Virus record (IMG/VR): IMGVR_UViG_3300032246_000739
Span: 1-48,564 of that record
DNA from: a virus
Reading direction: 5' to 3' (one strand)
DNA length: 48,564 bases
Shown: in pieces, positions 3,779 to 25,884 of the stretch
Numbering within the stretch: position 1 is the first letter of the stretch
Layout: each line of letters opens with the position of its first letter
Position numbers and translations under genes: made by a program
Notes under the pieces: generated by a model
What the model was told of the DNA's origin: nothing
Seen by the model: the letters and a program-made list of their open reading frames with translations, nothing else
Databases searched by the model: none

Positions 3779-3805
3779 CCAAATTGCCCTTGTGAGGCCG
3801 TTTGA

Positions 3806-4717
3806 TTAGGACGAACCGGGCGAACCAAAGATGCCCAATGGGTCAGACACGCCGAAGCTATAACGCTCGCGGGCTTTGTAACGAACGTTACCTGTGTCAA
3901 AGTCGCCGTCCATGCTGTTTTGCAGCGGAGTACGGACAAAGTGCTTCAAGCCGTTTGGCACGTCAGTCAACAGGAACCAGCCGTTGGTGTCTGTCAAGAA
4001 GTGGTTAACGGTATAGCCTTCAGGAATCGAGCCGTTGTTCTTCAAGGCGTTGATGTCGTTGTCGGTTGTACCAACGCGCAACTCGGTTTCGAGCAGGCGG
4101 GTAGCCACGAACATCAATGATGGAGGAACGATCAACTTCTTAGGCTTAGCAGCGATCAACAGACCACGTTCATCAGTCCAAGCAGCGATTTGAATAACAG
4201 CGTTTTCCAACGATGTTTCGTTCAAGTCAGCGCCAGTCGAAGGACGGTTGCTGTTAGTGCCACCAGACACCAGAGGGTGAGCTGTAGAGCACAGAACCAC
4301 GCCGTCGCCGTATGTAGGGCCACCGGTGAACGCGTTGTTCAACACGTAAGCAGCTTTAACTTGCTTTGTGTAAGCCATACCACGGGCCAAAGCCTTGGTG
4401 TAGCGGCTGGACAACGAGTCATACAAGTTGTCTTCCACTGCTTCTTCAGTGATGGAGAAGCCCATTGCGATGGTTTCGTGTGTGTAACGAGCAGTCCATG
4501 CTTCTTGTGCGTTGTCATAAGCGATGGCAGAGCCTTCGTTCTTGACGGGTGCAGCAGAGAAACCAGACAGTTTCGTTTCTTCTTCAAAGCTACGCTCAGA
4601 TGTCTCTGTTTCGTAGATTTCTTTGTGCTCTTCGCCGTATTTAGCGTACTCCAAGCCGAACAAAGCGTTCAGACCGGGGAGCAATTCCTTGAGCAGTTGT
4701 GCGCGTGAAATAGCCAT
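3806..4717 (-). CDS. Major capsid protein (HK97-fold / Mu-like head subunit type)
   Basis: A 303-residue protein with features of Mu gpT-like/HK97-fold capsid proteins. An N-terminal charged helix (KEIYETETSERSFEEE) is followed by GFSITEEAVEDNLYDSLSSR, KALARGMAYTKQ, the hallmark CSTAHPLVSGGTNSNRPS and a C-terminal beta segment ending YSFGVSDPLGIFG. It would form the icosahedral shell around the DNA. Start chosen at the ATG with GGAGCTAAATC upstream. It lies between a decoration-like gene and a strong terminator, the usual place for the most highly expressed head gene. It has no N-terminal prodomain, so assembly probably uses the separate scaffold-like protein at 5817-6776. Confidence 0.9.
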   Translation of the reverse strand: MAISRAQLLKELLPGLNALFGLEYAKYGEEHKEIYETETSERSFEEETKLSGFSAAPVKNEGSAIAYDNAQEAWTARYTHETIAMGFSITEEAVEDNLYDSLSSRYTKALARGMAYTKQVKAAYVLNNAFTGGPTYGDGVVLCSTAHPLVSGGTNSNRPSTGADLNETSLENAVIQIAAWTDERGLLIAAKPKKLIVPPSLMFVATRLLETELRVGTTDNDINALKNNGSIPEGYTVNHFLTDTNGWFLLTDVPNGLKHFVRTPLQNSMDGDFDTGNVRYKARERYSFGVSDPLGIFGSPGSS

Positions 4718-5361: not shown

Positions 5362-5820
5362 TTAAATACCTTTTCCGAAAGTGACCTTAGAGCTTCGTTC
5401 TTTGAACATCGGCATCCGAGGATCATTCTCGCGCATGAAGGTGTTATCCACTGAATTCATCTGCGCCTCTGCCTGTTGGCGGTAATACGCATCACGCTGT
5501 TCAGTAAACTCCACCGGGGTTTTGCAAAGCAACAAACCGCCGACTTCCACACTGTCTTGGAACTGACCGTTGGTCGATCCAAAAAGGCGAATTTCGGGAT
5601 GGTCAGAAGCCTTAACGGGTTCCCAGCCTTCGCGTAATTTGGCGGAAAGGTTAGTGGCGTCAGCCTTGTTTAAAGTACTGATCCGTATCCAACGAAAGGC
5701 ATAACCGGGTTCCGGGTTAGGATCGGGTAGGAGTTGCGGAGGCATCCATTGTTTTGGACGTTCAGCAATTTCGCGGGTTTCAAGATCACGACTTGGACGT
5801 GCAGCTTTTTCCATTTTCAT
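5362..5820 (-). CDS. Conserved head-module protein, unknown function
   Basis: A 152-residue protein with conserved blocks GYAFRWIRISTLNKADATN, LREGWEPVKASDHPE, VEVGGLLLCKTPVE and ENDPRMPMFKERSSKVTFG. These are familiar from T7-like and uncultured aquatic phages. The N-terminus is Pro/Arg-rich and disordered. Its ATG overlaps the scaffold-like gene stop (ATGA). The invariable place between scaffold and capsid genes suggests a head-assembly or internal head protein, but no biochemical role is known to me. Confidence 0.75.
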   Translation of the reverse strand: MKMEKAARPSRDLETREIAERPKQWMPPQLLPDPNPEPGYAFRWIRISTLNKADATNLSAKLREGWEPVKASDHPEIRLFGSTNGQFQDSVEVGGLLLCKTPVEFTEQRDAYYRQQAEAQMNSVDNTFMRENDPRMPMFKERSSKVTFGKGI

Positions 5821-7377: not shown

Positions 7378-9845
7378 TAACCCCTTTGAGCCATCTGTTG
7401 AGCTTTAAGCTGGGCCTTGGCTTGCGCCGCTTGCTCTGCTTGGTTTAATTTTTGTTGATGGATTTGCTGAGCCTGTATCAGTTCCATTTGATGACGTTGA
7501 TTTTGTTGCTGAATTTCCTGATCGTGACGAGCCGCAATCATTTCAGGAGACTCACCATTTTTCATCATCATCTCTTGCTGCTTCATTTGCAGCTCTTGCG
7601 CTTGAAGTTGCAATTCGCCTTGAACTTTTTGCGCCTTGATCTGAACTTCTTGTTGTTTGATTTGCAATTCAGCTTGTTGCATTTGTACAACAGGGTCCTG
7701 CATTTGTTGCTGAGCTTGCTGCTGAGCTGCTTGTCCTTTGTTCAACTGAGTCAGTTGAGTTGAAGCTTTGGCCACAAGTTTGGACAACTGAACTTCCACA
7801 TCTTTGGACAGTTCTGCATTTGGCTCTGGCAACGTAGCACCCAACTGCTCTTGAACGCCGTTGCGATACTGGAATGCAACGTGCTCTGCAATGTGCGCCA
7901 TCATGGCCGCTTGGATTTGCTGGGCCATTGGGTTCTGGCCAATCTGACCCATTACCTTGGGGTCTTGCATCATTGAAGTGTGAGCTGCAATGTGGGCGTC
8001 GTGGTCTTGGTAGATAAACGCTTTTTGGGGTTTGCCAGTTAAGAAGCCCATGTTCTCGCTGATCGGGTCATGAGGAAGTTGGTCGTCTTCAATCGGCACC
8101 AGCTTGTCGGCATTTTTAATCCCAAGCACTTCAATCATCTGGCGGTGCAATTGAGGCAGGTTGTAAATCTGCGGAGCACCTTGGGCCAACTGGATGACTG
8201 CTTGGTACTGCATGATCCGCTGGGCCATTGTCGAGCTGTTGGGATCGGACACGGGGATAACGTCCACCATGTCGTAATCTTGGCGTTTGGCTTTACGTGA
8301 ACCTTCAATTGGGTTGTACTCGTACTCTCCCGGGGTGTGGTCACGAATAATATCTCGCAGTAATTTGAATTCTTGCTTCATTGAGAAGTGAACTCTTGCT
8401 TGAACAGCGGACATGTTCTTCAACTGGCGCTCAAGCAAAGCCAAGGTAGTACCGACCGGAGCGTTTGCACTCATGTCGCTGATGTTCATATCAGCAATAG
8501 AACCTAACCTACGGCCTTCATCCGTGATTTGGTTTAACAAACTCATCAAGACTTGGCTTGGCTCCTTATAGGGGAGCATCATGATGTTGTCGCGGACAGT
8601 ACCGGAGGGCACATCTACGTCCCTAAATTCACCCGGAGAAATGGGTGTATCGTCACCTTTTACCCGCAAACCGCGTGCTTTCAGGCCGCCGGGCAGGTTA
8701 GAAAGCGTACCAGCATCCACCAATTGGCGAATAATGCTGGTTCCAGCTCGGGCATAACCACCAATCAGGTGAATCAAACCCAATCCGTAGGCTCCAAAGC
8801 CGGGAATATAGGTGTATTGGACGAAATGCTCGCGTTTTACTTTGCGTTCGTCGCTCTCTTCCCAGTTTCTACGGATGGCCAGCACTTCATTTGTGCCGCG
8901 ATCAATTGTAATCACGTAAGGAAGCGCGATTCCGTCTTCATCTTCGTAGCCGGGCAGGTCATAATCAATGTGAACTTCCAGAATCTGGTAGCGATCATCG
9001 TCTGTGAGTGAATATCCTTGGTCTTCGGCCTTCTTTTTCTCCACATCCGTGTGAATAGTGACCGGATCGCCCAGTTCTACGTCGCAATAGAAGCCAGAGA
9101 CCTGTAATTTCTTAATCTCGTTCTTTGTTTTGCGCATAACGTGGGTAACACGCTCGGCATTGAACAAACTTGAAGCTCCGTAGGGAATGATTACGTCTTC
9201 GGCCGGGATAAACGTGGCCATTTGACGGTCATAACCCGGGTCAAAGTAGATTTTCTTAAACGCCGCGCCGGCCAAGCCCAAGGAATACAGCAATCTTTCA
9301 TGCTCTGGGCGGTATTCAGGCATGCCCTCTGTCAATTTGTAGTTCATGTCATCACGAACTCGCTCGGCCGCGTCTTCTTTCAGCTTATCAATGGCTCCGA
9401 TGATCTCAGTTTTAACTGGGCCGGCCGCAGGGAATGTCTCCAGAATGGTTTCACTTTGAAAACGTATCGCAGCTTCAGTCAAGATCGTTGAGTACACACC
9501 GCAAGCGCCCATCCAAGGCTCGGTTCTCTCCTCATACTTCATGCCAAGGACTTCCAAGCCCTTGACGTACATCTCAACCCAGTCTTTTCGACTGTTAATA
9601 TCAGCGTCCACCATCTCGACAATGTCGCTGGCCACTTTTTGAAGCTCTCCACCGGACATTTCTTCTGCCAAGTTGGCATCAAAATCCATTTCATCGGTTT
9701 CTGGCATTAAGTCAATCTCTATGCCGTCCAAGCCAATTATTACGTCATCGGGATTTTCAATTTGAATCTCGATCCCCGGGCCTTCGTCTTGTAAGAGACT
9801 GTCCAAACCCAAAGGTGCTTGGCTGATTGATTGTTCAATGCTCAT
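7377..9845 (-). CDS. Portal protein (P22 type)
   Basis: An 822-residue portal subunit, the dodecameric ring through which DNA enters and leaves the head. The N-terminal acidic region is followed by RKDWVEMYVKGLEVLGMKYE and the conserved WMGACGVYSTILTEAAIRFQ. After that come KKIYFDPGYDRQ, FIPAEDVIIPYGASSL and PYVITIDRGTNEVLAIRRNW. The last 170 residues are a very Gln-rich coiled coil (repeats of QQAQQQMQ and QELQMKQQEM), a P22-like barrel extended by low complexity. The gene follows the large terminase by eight bases, the canonical packaging order. The length is greater than P22 gp1 (725), mainly through the Gln-rich tail. Confidence 0.9.
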   Translation of the reverse strand: MSIEQSISQAPLGLDSLLQDEGPGIEIQIENPDDVIIGLDGIEIDLMPETDEMDFDANLAEEMSGGELQKVASDIVEMVDADINSRKDWVEMYVKGLEVLGMKYEERTEPWMGACGVYSTILTEAAIRFQSETILETFPAAGPVKTEIIGAIDKLKEDAAERVRDDMNYKLTEGMPEYRPEHERLLYSLGLAGAAFKKIYFDPGYDRQMATFIPAEDVIIPYGASSLFNAERVTHVMRKTKNEIKKLQVSGFYCDVELGDPVTIHTDVEKKKAEDQGYSLTDDDRYQILEVHIDYDLPGYEDEDGIALPYVITIDRGTNEVLAIRRNWEESDERKVKREHFVQYTYIPGFGAYGLGLIHLIGGYARAGTSIIRQLVDAGTLSNLPGGLKARGLRVKGDDTPISPGEFRDVDVPSGTVRDNIMMLPYKEPSQVLMSLLNQITDEGRRLGSIADMNISDMSANAPVGTTLALLERQLKNMSAVQARVHFSMKQEFKLLRDIIRDHTPGEYEYNPIEGSRKAKRQDYDMVDVIPVSDPNSSTMAQRIMQYQAVIQLAQGAPQIYNLPQLHRQMIEVLGIKNADKLVPIEDDQLPHDPISENMGFLTGKPQKAFIYQDHDAHIAAHTSMMQDPKVMGQIGQNPMAQQIQAAMMAHIAEHVAFQYRNGVQEQLGATLPEPNAELSKDVEVQLSKLVAKASTQLTQLNKGQAAQQQAQQQMQDPVVQMQQAELQIKQQEVQIKAQKVQGELQLQAQELQMKQQEMMMKNGESPEMIAARHDQEIQQQNQRHQMELIQAQQIHQQKLNQAEQAAQAKAQLKAQQMAQRG

Positions 9846-9853
9846 GATGTGCC

Positions 9854-11368
9854 TTAATAGTAGACGGTTTTACGGCGGAAGCTTTGCAACTCTTCGCGTT
9901 CATCGGATTCTAATCTCAGGAAGCCGCCTTGTCTAAACCTGAGTAACGCTTGTACGGTGGTATCTACCAAATCGTCGTGGGCCGCGTTCGGGAAAGCAGC
10001 CATCTGGTCGATCACTTCTCTGGCCCATCTTGTATCCGGAGCCCATACCTTTCCCGAGTTAAACATGTCCGACACGGAATTTAAACGCGCGATCTTATCG
10101 TTCGACTGCTGTCTCGTTCCTCGGGTCGGGGTGTATTCACTCACAGGGATTCCGGCCGCACGCATTTCAAATACCAACGGAGCTCCAGCCGCTTTGGCTT
10201 CGATAATACAGGCGTCTGGTTGCCAGTCCATATAGTGGGCTTTGGCTTTTTCTTTGAGCTCGGGGAACTCCATTCTTTTTTGGAAAGAATCCAGCAGGAT
10301 AATATTTGCATTGTTTGAATCCTCATCCATGTGAAAAACGCCCCACGTCGTACAAGCGGAAAAGTCGGAGCGTTCATTTTTTGTAAACGCCGTATCCCAC
10401 GACTGGATAATAAACTCACACCTCGGCGGGTCTTCCTTCTCCCAAATCTTCCACCACTCCCGCTTAACAATCGCCCCCTCTTCGCCAGTGGGCTGCTGCT
10501 GATACTGAGCATTCCATTTTGCCGGCGACAGCTCTTCTTTCAGAGCTTCCAATAAATCCAGCGGCCAGAACTCAGGCCACAAAGAAGCACCGCTCGGCAT
10601 GATTGCAGGGAACTCAATGACATCCCACTCGTCAGGTCTCCCCCTCTCGATCGAGTCATTAATCACTCGTCCAATCAAATCCCGCTCGGACCATCTCGTA
10701 GCAATAATAATTATCGCCCCGTTAGGCTGAAGTCGCTGGCGAGGACCAGACGTGTACCACTCATACGACTTATCGTAAATACTGGGATCGTGCGCAGCGT
10801 TAGCCGCTTCTTGTTCCGTGTGCGGATCGTCAATGATAACCAGATCAGCACCCCGGCCAGTCATAGTACCTCCCACACCGATCGCAAAGTACTCTCCATC
10901 TTTATTAGTACTCCACCGGCCGGCAGCTTTACTATCCTGTCTCAAAGTCACCCCGGGGAATACTTCCTCATACTGGTCACTCATTACCAAGTTACGCACC
11001 TTACGTCCAAACCCTACGGCGAGCTCTCCCGTATTGGAAGCTTGCATAACCTTCTTACCCGGATACTTGCCCAAGAACCAACTCGGAAACAAGTACGAGC
11101 CAAACTCACTCTTTGTATGCCGAGGGGGTAAAGAGATGGCCAGACGTTTTATTTTCCCCGACGCAACATCTTCAAACTTCTTAGCCAGTACCGCATGATG
11201 CCGGCCATGAATAAACCCCGGCCACATCCGTTTAACGTAAGCCATAAAAGACGACTGACAGTTCTCCCGCTCCACAGAGAGCTTGTACTCATTCATCTTC
11301 CGGCGAAGCGTCTCAAACTTCTCCTGCGGCAAAGACGCTATCTGCTCATCCGTTAAATTAAACATCAT
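9854..11368 (-). CDS. terL: Terminase large subunit
   Basis: A 504-residue packaging motor. The ATPase domain has an atypical Walker A (LPPRHTKSE, about 80-88) and a Walker B plus catalytic acidic residue (LVIIDDP, 176-182). The RNase H-like nuclease domain has SWDTAF (323-328) and the late acidic cluster AHDDLVD (464-469). It docks on the portal and translocates DNA into the prohead, then cuts it. It begins immediately after the LexA-like gene (TAAATG) and precedes the portal. Family resemblance is to P22/uncultured-podovirus-type terminases, which often package by headful. That would agree with the circular permutation inferred here. Confidence 0.95.
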   Translation of the reverse strand: MMFNLTDEQIASLPQEKFETLRRKMNEYKLSVERENCQSSFMAYVKRMWPGFIHGRHHAVLAKKFEDVASGKIKRLAISLPPRHTKSEFGSYLFPSWFLGKYPGKKVMQASNTGELAVGFGRKVRNLVMSDQYEEVFPGVTLRQDSKAAGRWSTNKDGEYFAIGVGGTMTGRGADLVIIDDPHTEQEAANAAHDPSIYDKSYEWYTSGPRQRLQPNGAIIIIATRWSERDLIGRVINDSIERGRPDEWDVIEFPAIMPSGASLWPEFWPLDLLEALKEELSPAKWNAQYQQQPTGEEGAIVKREWWKIWEKEDPPRCEFIIQSWDTAFTKNERSDFSACTTWGVFHMDEDSNNANIILLDSFQKRMEFPELKEKAKAHYMDWQPDACIIEAKAAGAPLVFEMRAAGIPVSEYTPTRGTRQQSNDKIARLNSVSDMFNSGKVWAPDTRWAREVIDQMAAFPNAAHDDLVDTTVQALLRFRQGGFLRLESDEREELQSFRRKTVYY

Positions 11369-15423: not shown

Positions 15424-15743
15424 CATCGAGGGCGCTCCGGCCCCGTCAGTCTCCGGCGGCGGGCGCTCCGGCCCCGTCAGTGGCGCAGCCGGGTTGCTCC
15501 GGCCCCGTCAATATGGCGCTCCGGCCCCGTCAGCCCTGCGCTCCGGCCCCGTCAGCGAAAAGATTCCCCGAATCCGAAAACCCGTTGACGCTGGCGTTGA
15601 TCCAGTCCACGCGGGTACAAACACACACCGACATGGTTCAGGCTGTGAGGCTGATCCGTGCTTTGGAATCTAAATTAACAGGCTGCGAGGTTGATCGGTG
15701 CCGATTGGCCGCAGATGTATTACTCGAAAGACGATTGACATGA
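15420..15743 (+). CDS. Reading frame across the direct-repeat array; C-terminal helical domain
   Basis: A 107-codon frame coupled to the previous gene (ATGA). The first 50 codons translate the direct repeats into alternating peptides (ALRPRQ, APAPS, CSGPV) because the repeats fall in different frames. That part is therefore probably shaped by DNA function. Residues from about 55 on (NPLTLALIQSTRVQTHTDMV ... LESKLTGCEVDRCRLAADVL) look like an ordinary small helical protein and could start at an internal Met (MVQAVRLI). The stop is coupled to the next tiny gene. Confidence 0.45.
   Translation: MTSRALRPRQSPAAGAPAPSVAQPGCSGPVNMALRPRQPCAPAPSAKRFPESENPLTLALIQSTRVQTHTDMVQAVRLIRALESKLTGCEVDRCRLAADVLLERRLT
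15431..15555. repeat. Iteron-like direct repeats (five copies)
   Basis: Five copies of GCTCCGGCCCCGTCA begin at 15434, 15465, 15496, 15518 and 15540. Copies 1, 2, 4 and 5 extend leftward with GC or GGC, and all but copy 3 continue with G. The spacing is 31, 31, 22 and 22 bases, close to three, three, two and two helical turns, so the copies face one side of the helix. A partial sixth copy, CCGGCCCCGTCAG, lies at 15864-15876 in the end of the primase gene. Adjacent minus-strand genes encode primase, helicase and a ParB-like protein. A replication origin or protein-loading site is the likeliest reading. Confidence 0.75.
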
Positions 15744-23133: not shown

Positions 23134-23163
23134 TTGACGAACCTGATATGTAGTAGGTACAAT
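23134..23163 (+). promoter_or_regulatory. Sigma70-type promoter of the recombination operon / pentamer RNA
   Basis: TTGACG (23134-23139) and TACAAT (23158-23163) are 18 bases apart. ACCTGAT occurs at 23141 and again near 23176, so a regulator could sit over the promoter and start site. Transcription would begin near 23170, 25 bases before the first pentamer array. Confidence 0.65.
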
Positions 23164-23194: not shown

Positions 23195-23279
23195 GGTTTG
23201 GTTCGGCTCGGATGGGTGGTGAGAGGCGCGATAAGGCGAGGACAGGTTAGGTCGGGTCAGGTGAGGTGCGGCGTGGACT
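23195..23279 (+). repeat. Pentamer array A (17 units)
   Basis: Starts GGTTT GGTTC GGCTC GGATG and ends GGTGC GGCGT GGACT. Only TGAGA and GATAA break the GG rule. The phase is kept through the exceptions. Confidence 0.8.
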
Positions 23280-23325
23280 GCTTGCAGTCGATAGGGCATT
23301 TAACAAAGTGCTCCTTCGAGTGTGA

Positions 23326-23395
23326 GGCGGGCACCGGCAGACTTCGGTCGGGCGGGGCCGGGAAAGGCTCGGAGAGGCGGGGTTAGGCAAGGGCT
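23326..23395 (+). repeat. Pentamer array B (14 units)
   Basis: Follows cassette 1 (hairpins at 23277-23288 and 23294-23313). GCACC and ACTTC are the exceptions. It ends GGTTA GGCAA GGGCT, identical to the end of array C. Confidence 0.8.
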
Positions 23396-23448
23396 GTTTA
23401 CAGCGGGATGGTTTCTCACAAGAGATCATTTCGGTGGCAACACCAAGT

Positions 23449-23528
23449 GGTTTGCTTCGGCGCGATGCGGACAGGCTCGGCCGGGCAAGGTGTAGAGAGG
23501 TCGGGAAGGCTCCGGTTAGGCAAGGGCT
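23449..23528 (+). repeat. Pentamer array C (16 units)
   Basis: Follows cassette 2 (first hairpin 23393-23404). GCTTC, GATGC, AGAGA and GCTCC deviate but keep the 5-base register. It ends GGTTA GGCAA GGGCT. Confidence 0.8.
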
Positions 23529-23576
23529 GCATGCAGTCGATAGGGCATTGGAAACAGTGCCACTTCGAGTGTTTAT

Positions 23577-23636
23577 GGAGATGCCGGGATTGGCGGGGAC
23601 TGGCATGGAAAGGTAGAGTCCGGCAAGGTAAGGGCT
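23577..23636 (+). repeat. Pentamer array D (12 units)
   Basis: Follows cassette 3, whose second stem GGCATTG/CAGTGCC closes a GAAA tetraloop (23544-23561). TGCCG and AGTCC deviate. It ends GGCAA GGTAA GGGCT and runs into cassette 4. Confidence 0.8.
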
Positions 23637-23712
23637 GCATGCAGCGGGATGACTCTTCAATGAGGTGTCATTTCGATGCAAAAGGTTGCATCAATTAACT
23701 CAAAGGAAAATC

Positions 23713-24282
23713 ATGAAATCAATTGCTATTCGTATTACAGGCAAAGCGCCTTTTCTTATGCACTCGGATCGGTTCGCCAATCCGCTTGACCCTTTGGCCA
23801 AGGCTCACAAAGAGCTGACTGGCAAGCGCAAGAAGACAGACGATGACCATGTGGCCATTGCTCGCAGTGAGTTTATTGGCGGGTGCTATTGGAACAAACA
23901 GTCGGGCTTCTTCTTGCCGGCGCAGAACCTTGATGCCTGCCTGATTAACGCGGCCAAGTTGCAGAAGCTGGGCGTCAAGTTCAAGCAGGGCGTGCAGGTT
24001 GTGGAAGACGAGCTGACGTTTATTGGGTACGAGAACAAGAACCCAGACCAGCTCTGGGAGAACCCGGATTACATTGACTGCCGTGGCGTTAAGGTTGGGA
24101 CCGCAAAGATCATGCGCTACCGCCCTATATTTCGTCGCTGGAGCATGAACGCAACCATTGCTGTGAACGAAGAGGTGGTGAACATCAACGAGGTCAAGAA
24201 GGCCGTGACAGATGCCGGCGCTTTGATTGGCTTGGGCGATTACCGTCCACGCTTTGGTCGTTTCACAGTGGAATTTGTCTAA
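23713..24282 (+). CDS. Possible RAMP/Cas7-like RNA-binding protein
   Basis: A 189-residue protein, start chosen at ATG after AAAGGAAAATC. The N-terminal strand IAIRITGKAPFLMHS resembles the first strand of Cas7/RAMP-type RRM folds. LPAQNLDACLINAAK would be the first helix, MRYRPIFRRWSMNATIAVN the later strands, and the C-terminus GALIGLGDYRPRFGRFTVEF (168-187) resembles the glycine-rich loop before the last strand in RAMP proteins. It is the first gene after the pentamer RNA and shares its transcript. I see no catalytic residues. It could equally be an undescribed recombination accessory protein; the RAMP reading is by pattern only. Confidence 0.5.
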   Translation: MKSIAIRITGKAPFLMHSDRFANPLDPLAKAHKELTGKRKKTDDDHVAIARSEFIGGCYWNKQSGFFLPAQNLDACLINAAKLQKLGVKFKQGVQVVEDELTFIGYENKNPDQLWENPDYIDCRGVKVGTAKIMRYRPIFRRWSMNATIAVNEEVVNINEVKKAVTDAGALIGLGDYRPRFGRFTVEFV

Positions 24283-24757: not shown

Positions 24758-25018
24758 ATGAAGAAAGAAAATGTTAAGCCTTCTGAAGTTCAGCATGAGC
24801 CAGAAGTTTTGGAAAGGTCAAAGGTTCTTGCTGCTCATTTGGCTGAGCTTCTCTACGCCCAAGAAGAAACCACTCAGGAAAAGATCGTTGCTGCCGGAAT
24901 TGTTTTTTCATCAATGGCTGCTATGCACGGGATACCACTCCCTCACGCAATTAATTTATTGGTTGGCTGCTACGGGCTGGCTGATAATTTCTTTGAAACA
25001 GCGGGGCCGATGCAATGA
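24758..25018 (+). CDS. Small helical protein, unknown
   Basis: An 86-residue, all-helical protein (ERSKVLAAHLAELLYAQEET ... INLLVGCYGLADNFFETAGP). Shine-Dalgarno GAGAGGTAATTACC. Ends in an ATGA overlap with the nuclease gene. No motif beyond helices; possibly a nuclease partner. Confidence 0.65.
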   Translation: MKKENVKPSEVQHEPEVLERSKVLAAHLAELLYAQEETTQEKIVAAGIVFSSMAAMHGIPLPHAINLLVGCYGLADNFFETAGPMQ

Positions 25019-25884
25019 AATTAACCAACAACCTTGGCCTGCCTGACACCTTTGTCAACGCTATCTCCCGGCCCACCTACACCAAGGGTGACGCACAGAT
25101 CAGCGCGACAGAGATACTCAACAGCCCGCGTATCGTGCAGCTCAAGCGAAAGCATTGGGACGATCTTGAAGAAGACGCAGCCGACATGGTCTGGTCACTC
25201 TTTGGCTCGGCCGTCCACGAAGTCTTGCAACACGGCAAGGATGACCACCACATTGTGGAGGAGCGCATCCACACCGAGTATTTGGGCTGGAAGATCAGCG
25301 GCGCTATCGACCTGCAAGAAGTCTATGACGACGGTGTTGTCATCAGCGACTACAAGGTCACCAGCGCATGGGCTGTGATGAATGAAAAGGCTGATTGGCA
25401 CAACCAGTTGAACCTGTACGGCTGGCTTGTCGAGCGCGTCAAAAAGCAAAAGGTTAAATCCTTGCAGATCATAGCCATCGTTCGAGACTGGTCACGCCGT
25501 GATGCAGCCACACGCGAGGGCTATCCCAAAGCGCCAGTGACCGTTATCGAGTTGCCATTGTGGTCATACGCTGATCGTGAAATCTATATCGCCAAACGTT
25601 TAACGCTGCACAATGATGCGTTCTTTGCCGTACATACAGGGCACGGTATGCCTGAGTGCTCAGCCGAAGAGATGTGGGAGAAGCCCACCATGTACGCAGT
25701 GATGAAGGAAGGCGGCAAGCGCGCCAAGAGCGTTCACATTAACAAGGCAGAGGCTGAAGTGGCCATGCCTTCAACAGGGTACTTTATCGAGGTACGTGAG
25801 GGTGACAGGACTCGTTGCTCTGGCTTTTGTCAGGTCAACAAGCAATGTGACCAATATCAAAAATATCTTTCAACCAAGGAGTAA
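25015..25884 (+). CDS. RecB/Cas4-like PD-(D/E)XK exonuclease
   Basis: A 289-residue nuclease of the RecB-nuclease (PDDEXK_1) type. Motifs are GSAVHEVLQHG (His68), ISGAIDLQEVYDDGVVISDY with Asp99 and the D-Y-K at 112-114, and Q131-x3-Y135 (QLNLYGWL). A C-terminal Cys run, RCSGFCQVNKQCDQ, could hold an Fe-S cluster as in Cas4/AddB-type enzymes. It would resect double-stranded ends so that the downstream ERF annealing protein can act, an exonuclease-annealase pair like lambda Exo/Beta. ATGA-coupled to the preceding gene. Confidence 0.8.
   Translation: MKLTNNLGLPDTFVNAISRPTYTKGDAQISATEILNSPRIVQLKRKHWDDLEEDAADMVWSLFGSAVHEVLQHGKDDHHIVEERIHTEYLGWKISGAIDLQEVYDDGVVISDYKVTSAWAVMNEKADWHNQLNLYGWLVERVKKQKVKSLQIIAIVRDWSRRDAATREGYPKAPVTVIELPLWSYADREIYIAKRLTLHNDAFFAVHTGHGMPECSAEEMWEKPTMYAVMKEGGKRAKSVHINKAEAEVAMPSTGYFIEVREGDRTRCSGFCQVNKQCDQYQKYLSTKE

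Follow-up and report, generated by a model that had tools for sequence, protein, structure and literature searches.

The stretch of phage DNA analysed here (the window; 48,564 nucleotides, IMG/VR record IMGVR_UViG_3300032246_000739) carries at positions 23195-23697 four arrays of pentamers that are in strict register and separated by folded cassettes. Two protein-coding genes follow directly, the first for a RAMP protein and the second for an accessory protein. We name these features after VIPR (Viral Interference Programmable Repeat), a system described in a recent preprint (PMC13142463, April/June 2026), in which an array and its structured tail form a vrRNA, the RAMP protein is Vipr and the accessory protein Vap. 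The features of the locus are:

23134..23163, plus strand: sigma70-like promoter, TTGACG-18 nt-TACAAT, a consensus match only, with 0.3 expected in shuffles
23195..23274, plus strand: guide array of vrRNA A, 16 GGYNN units; NN = TT TC TC TG GG GA GC AA GA CA TA CG CA GA GC GT
23275..23325, plus strand: tail of vrRNA A, class TCGAT...CTTCGAGTG
23326..23390, plus strand: guide array of vrRNA B, 13 units; NN = GG CC AG TC CG GG CG AA TC GA GG TA AA
23391..23448, plus strand: tail of vrRNA B, three hairpins, the last GGTGGCAACACC
23449..23523, plus strand: guide array of vrRNA C, 15 units; NN = TT TC GC GC CA TC CG AA GT GA CG AG CC TA AA
23524..23576, plus strand: tail of vrRNA C, of the TCGAT...CTTCGAGTG class
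23577..23631, plus strand: guide array of vrRNA D, 11 units; NN = GA CG TT GG CT AT AA AG CC AA AA
23632..23697, plus strand: tail of vrRNA D, three hairpins, the last GATGC...GCATC; adjoins the ribosome binding site of vipr
23713..24282, plus strand: Vipr, a 189-aa RAMP protein, phrog_4652, with 42% identity to the Vipr of Escherichia phage SUSP1
24282..24752, plus strand: Vap, the accessory protein, phrog_5926; a homologue of SUSP1 Vap

The promoter, which had already been recognised in a preliminary description of this DNA, likely drives a vrRNA-vipr-vap transcript. That description also placed the arrays in front of a recombination operon. Genes for a PD-(D/E)XK nuclease, ERF and SSB are indeed present further downstream, but the genes adjoining the arrays are vipr and vap. 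In relatives of the locus, the recombination genes are inconstant neighbours, unlike vipr, and their presence beside it is probably incidental. The PD-(D/E)XK exonuclease of the ERF/SSB operon (25015-25884) has a weak Cas4-like match.

On recount, the array coordinates and the numbers first given for them are correct: the in-phase units number 17, 14, 16 and 12 when the first five bases of each cassette are taken as one unit, and 49 of these 59 units start with GG. The guides proper have 11 to 16 units each. The four highest-scoring period-5 GG runs of the whole window are the four arrays (scores 13, 10, 8 and 8), which add up to 39; in 5000 first-order Markov shuffles, this sum averaged 10.5 and never exceeded 19. 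There is no comparable GG signal in the window at periods 3, 4, 6, 7, 8, 9 or 11, and the signal at period 10 is a harmonic of period 5. As had been proposed, deviating units keep phase; in guide C, 4 of the 15 units lack a perfect GG (GCTTC, GATGC, AGAGA, GCTCC) and stay in register. The common end of arrays B and C (GGTTA GGCAA GGGCT) is likewise there, with GGGCT being the first bases of the conserved tail. By contrast, the view that the other three positions of the unit vary freely does not hold. Among 127 distinct arrays from the window and related loci, GG is the most strongly conserved feature; position 3 is C in 49%, T in 34%, A in 16% and G in 1%. Near-random composition is confined to positions 4 and 5, with entropies of 1.96 and 1.99 bits, respectively. 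The array unit is GGY-NN (GGY/GGH) and its last two bases are the guide information. A coding reading of the arrays was rejected, in agreement with the preliminary description, because a strict 5-base period misfits codons and the conserved genes begin downstream of the arrays. An Rfam search of the region gave no match either at the gathering cut-off or at E<=1. Elsewhere in the window, tandem G+C-rich repeats at 15430-15556 (CTCCGGCCCCGTCAG; periods 15, 22 and 31) are unrelated to the vrRNA arrays.

The tails fall into two classes that alternate in the window, A and C belonging to one and B and D to the other. When compared with relatives, the predicted stems have changed on both sides with pairing kept in 12 of 20 and 6 of 13 pairs for the two classes, respectively. 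The first hairpin of the A/C class has a second arm that is also able to pair with the tail end, and this alternative pairing would fit a pseudoknot like the one reported for the SUSP1 vrRNA tail (PMC13142463). Both classes are also mixed within single loci of relatives, and they may represent two vrRNA lineages or two tail functions.

An AlphaFold2 model of Vipr, built with 24 aligned relatives, has a pLDDT of 89.2 and a pTM of 0.81. It matches 59 PDB entries at E<=0.001 (best 3.2e-5), and the 50 of these 59 that were listed are all CRISPR effector complexes or free Csm3 and comprise types III-A, III-D and VII, mostly III-A and VII. The TM-scores to Cas7 are only about 0.5, though the pLDDT is good. 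Based on this model, Vipr is a Cas7-like RAMP fold. The window and SUSP1 proteins belong together: the two Vipr proteins are 42% identical over 191 columns, the two SUSP1 proteins match phrog_4652 and phrog_5926 as do those of the window, and SUSP1 Vap aligns with the window Vap family with an hhalign E of 2.4e-13. In the PHROG entry, phrog_4652 has no annotated function. The Vap model (pLDDT 87) has no PDB match at E<=0.001, and its weak matches include winged-helix regulators.

As described (PMC13142463), VIPR consists of the RAMP protein Vipr, the accessory protein Vap and vrRNAs, in which 9-16 YNNGG repeats are followed by a structured tail. Through its NN pairs, a vrRNA reads double-stranded DNA as NNxNNx, leaving out one target base between successive pairs, and the complex acts as a transcriptional repressor of rival mobile elements. 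In SUSP1, the model phage of that work, and likewise in Pseudomonas fulva, the arrays were shown to be transcribed and their RNAs to co-purify with Vipr. Among seven VIPR types, type II has a DNA-binding vap product and the SUSP1-like Vipr clade (PMC13142463). The window has a phage-encoded RAMP Vipr of about 20 kD, an adjoining vap, GGYNN arrays and structured 3' tails, and one of its guides, C, has a 1-base-skip match in which the skipped base is the wobble position. We therefore suggest, with a probability of roughly 95%, that this uncultivated phage carries a VIPR locus of the SUSP1 kind. The locus is real and striking, but its kind was described a few months earlier (PMC13142463), and the vrRNAs of that April 2026 preprint supersede the statement that no RNA class of this design had been described.

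The window and SUSP1 systems share the Vipr PHROG and the Vap PHROG, several GGY/NN vrRNAs, the structured tail and the 1-base-skip code. They differ in arrangement, because SUSP1 has one vrRNA upstream of vipr and three downstream whereas all four are upstream in the window, and also in their tail sequences (PMC13142463). The P. fulva prophage VIPR is the same kind of system and also has mobile-element targets, but those reported are mainly prophage lysis-lysogeny regulators (PMC13142463), whereas guide C matches an integrase. The word "integrase" is absent from the main text of the preprint, whose supplementary target list may hold integrase targets. More distantly, class 1 CRISPR effectors (III-A, VII; Cas7/Csm3 backbones) have the same RAMP backbone fold and a regularly interrupted guide-target pairing. 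However, they proceed in 6-base steps with 5 bases paired, while the window has a 5-base unit with 2 paired bases and a single small RAMP, without cas genes or a CRISPR array: no array of identical repeats and contiguous spacers was found around the vrRNAs, and the proteins scanned there include no Cas protein save for the weak Cas4-like match at 25015. The parallel drawn earlier with Cas7 filaments has turned out to be close, given that Cas7/Csm3 are the best structural matches of Vipr. The parallel with TRAP has not. (G/U)AG-repeat RNA is also a short phased RNA motif, but a TRAP-binding RNA ((G/U)AG triplets with 2-3 nt spacers) was rejected because the units are GGYNN; moreover, there is no TRAP gene, the protein fold is another one, and the information is carried by the bases between the motifs. 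Finally, a multimeric RNA-binding protein that reads one GG per subunit had been proposed. The next gene does encode a RAMP, and Vipr co-purifies with such RNAs (PMC13142463), but the role as DNA-targeting guides was missed.

An IMG/VR search with the Vipr protein gave 43 loci, and period-5 GG arrays adjoin the gene in 43 of 43, always with GG on the strand of the gene and never as CC arrays. Arrays are also found beside vipr in Felixounavirus wV8, Mooglevirus, LESphi2, Medea1, Gordonia phages and phage DSL-LC04, as well as beside the gene on Bradyrhizobium and Azospirillum plasmids, where they are weaker in 2 of 4 cases. Similar phased arrays thus occur in related phages, and since independent relatives in IMG/VR and GenBank carry them, an assembly artefact is excluded. 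Guide B has related guides in two relatives, L001 and L009. The closest relative, L001, has a Vipr with 95% identity, yet its first and last guides are unlike those of the window; guides therefore turn over faster than the Vipr protein. In the same relative, guide C is lengthened to 18 units (846-937) and its start is still at the integrase site.

It is guide C for which a target could be decoded. An 11-pair pattern taken from the window sequence alone was searched with a 1-base skip in the genomes of 84,980 species and gave 30 exact matches, compared to about 0.03 expected from base counts (2 x 257 Gb / 4^22). Every one of the 30 is antisense to codons for HG(F/L)RSTFRDWAA, and the base skipped is always codon position 3. 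Read with a 1-base skip, the first 13 pairs correspond to the HGFRSTFRDWAA codons of P4-type integrases, and at seven loci all 26 bases of these pairs are matched. Both target proteins that were checked are PF00589 integrases, and the targeted part is what we take to be the HxxR catalytic motif of P4-type tyrosine integrases. The final two units, TA AA, mismatch the target and are apparently a constant element that closes the array ahead of the tail. The NN of the four units with an imperfect GG do match it and, thus, phase and NN were kept where GG had drifted. A 9-pair pattern with two bases relaxed from related guides (variants from three relatives) has seven exact matches in IMG/VR, six of which are at the same place in integrase genes, again antisense and in codon phase. 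In a control using the same 100 genomes and at most 3 mismatches throughout, guide C read with a 1-base skip has eight sites in seven genomes, while skips 0 and 2 and the reversed pattern have none. At the level of sequence comparison, the guide C match shows a reading by the 1-base-skip code.

The guides of relatives point the same way. Against 1.35 Mb of retrieved loci, 11 of them reach at least 90% with skip 1 and none with skips 0, 2 or 3; because the integrase loci were retrieved with guide C's own pattern (plus the variants from three relatives), these counts, like those at the integrase site below, are supporting and not fully independent. When the order of the NN was shuffled, 90% was reached in the same 1.35 Mb by a single guide for skip 1 and by a single guide for skip 2. 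At the integrase site, nine guides score at least 0.85 (rounded) and a tenth 0.83, the shuffled maximum being 0.83. The relatives' guides begin at differing offsets within the same motif, and for those of L005, L006 and L009 the match extends past the stretch by which the viral loci were retrieved, for instance with CG AA CC TG GG. Altogether, about ten guides in this phage group appear to aim at the same integrase motif. As far as we have checked, neither the integrase target decoded here nor its repeated use by related phages has been described before.

Could the arrays be something other than guides? A protein-binding decoy or regulatory RNA of the TRAP, CsrA or Hfq sort, in which GG is the sole information and NN drift is neutral, would account for GG being the most conserved part of the unit. 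It is already contradicted, though, by guide C, whose NN spell an integrase motif through 26 of 26 bases at seven loci, and the adjoining gene encodes a RAMP. Also, a comparison by eye of the related guides in the window and in L009 shows changes at about 8 of 14 third positions but at only 4 of 28 NN bases. We consider such a decoy very unlikely. There is next to no chance that the arrays act as DNA and not as RNA, i.e. as iterons, a replication origin or a recombination-protein site. Their position upstream of ERF, SSB and nuclease genes would suit this idea, but it is vipr and not the recombination genes that is conserved as a neighbour, GG keeps to one strand relative to the gene in the 43 relatives, the two-sided changes in the tails are those of RNA stems, and in SUSP1 the homologous arrays give rise to RNA that co-purifies with Vipr (PMC13142463).

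A narrower objection accepts the VIPR locus and attributes the integrase likeness of guide C to descent from, or homology to, an integrase gene and not to targeting. The confinement of the match to one conserved gene family is compatible with this. However, the guide holds 2 of every 3 integrase bases with GGY between them and so cannot be a copy of the gene; in addition, the searches with skips 0 and 2 found nothing, and the relatives' guides start at other offsets in the same motif. Descent is, therefore, extremely unlikely, and we favor the reading of guide C as a targeting guide.

The other guides gave no convincing target in the searches made. Guide A has no exact matches with its 9 inner pairs and seven with its 8 outer pairs, the best of which reaches 22 of 32; the identification of the ORF at this best match as a small terminase was rejected because it matches no Pfam or PHROG family. 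With 3 mismatches allowed, guide A matched in 0 of 300 genomes, and its decoded peptide has no tblastn match. The best match of guide B (22 of 26) is in a 5'-3' exonuclease gene, is off wobble phase and is near chance for 100 matches. Guide D has only four matches, which is chance level. When compared with all VIPR loci collected here, the window guides have no skip-1 target and, thus, there is no sign of self- or sister-targeting.

Based on these data, we suggest the following model. A single transcript from the promoter at about 23134-23163 would carry the four vrRNAs, each with a GGYNN array followed by a folded 3' tail, and then vipr and vap. Vipr would line the array with one subunit per unit, so that GGY is held by the protein and the NN pair is displayed, and the NN pairs would base-pair with DNA with one target base skipped between pairs. 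Being the antisense strand, guide C would pair with the coding strand of the integrase gene. Extrapolating from other members of the system (PMC13142463), the RNP would form, bind dsDNA and repress transcription. As a consequence, the integrases of competing prophages, satellites or islands would likely be silenced in the same host cell; repression of the integrase by guide C is likely by analogy with these members.

Because only codon positions 1 and 2 are read, a single guide would suffice for the HxxR motif of P4-type integrases in alpha-, beta- and gammaproteobacteria alike, and a code blind to the wobble position would make the guide specific for a protein motif. Guide C points to no single victim element, as the conserved motif draws in many integrases. 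We lean towards the idea that the VIPR guides of this clade are programmed against a protein motif and not a particular sequence, and serve as a weapon of broad range, directed at satellites, prophages and islands that integrate. If so, synonymous changes would give the integrase no escape from the guide, and an entire class of rival elements would have its insertion machinery disabled by phage guides. The catalytic motif of the integrase is also a concrete natural target for VIPR, and the match confirms the 1-base-skip code independently, by computation alone, in a phage group that the main text of the preprint does not name. For the annotation of phage genomes, e.g. Felixounavirus, the combination of phrog_4652, phrog_5926 and GGYNN arrays provides a simple rule.

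Several relatives have features of their own. Another conserved guide family (NN ~ TC TG AT AR GN CT TC TG CT) recurs in the related phages L020 (4731), L024 (4639), L027 (4647) and L035 (4637). A 28% identical Vipr relative in Vibrio phage 1.266.O (L053) has no detectable period-5 GG array, and its repeat unit may differ. The divergent Vipr relatives on the Bradyrhizobium and Azospirillum plasmids (L047-L050) have one short array directly after the gene; in the Bradyrhizobium loci, HNH, metallophosphoesterase and AAA ATPase genes are nearby, and the plasmid loci are possibly enzyme-bearing VIPR types. In wV8 (L046), direct repeats annotated in GenBank as DR_4 (9759-9816 and 11152-11209) flank or overlap the arrays around vipr and vap and look like vrRNA tails or leaders. 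In phage DSL-LC04 (L054), the Vipr relative with three arrays (3785-4402) is annotated as a helix-turn-helix transcriptional regulator, which is probably wrong. In L041, the arrays (5606-5808) lie downstream of vipr and not upstream.
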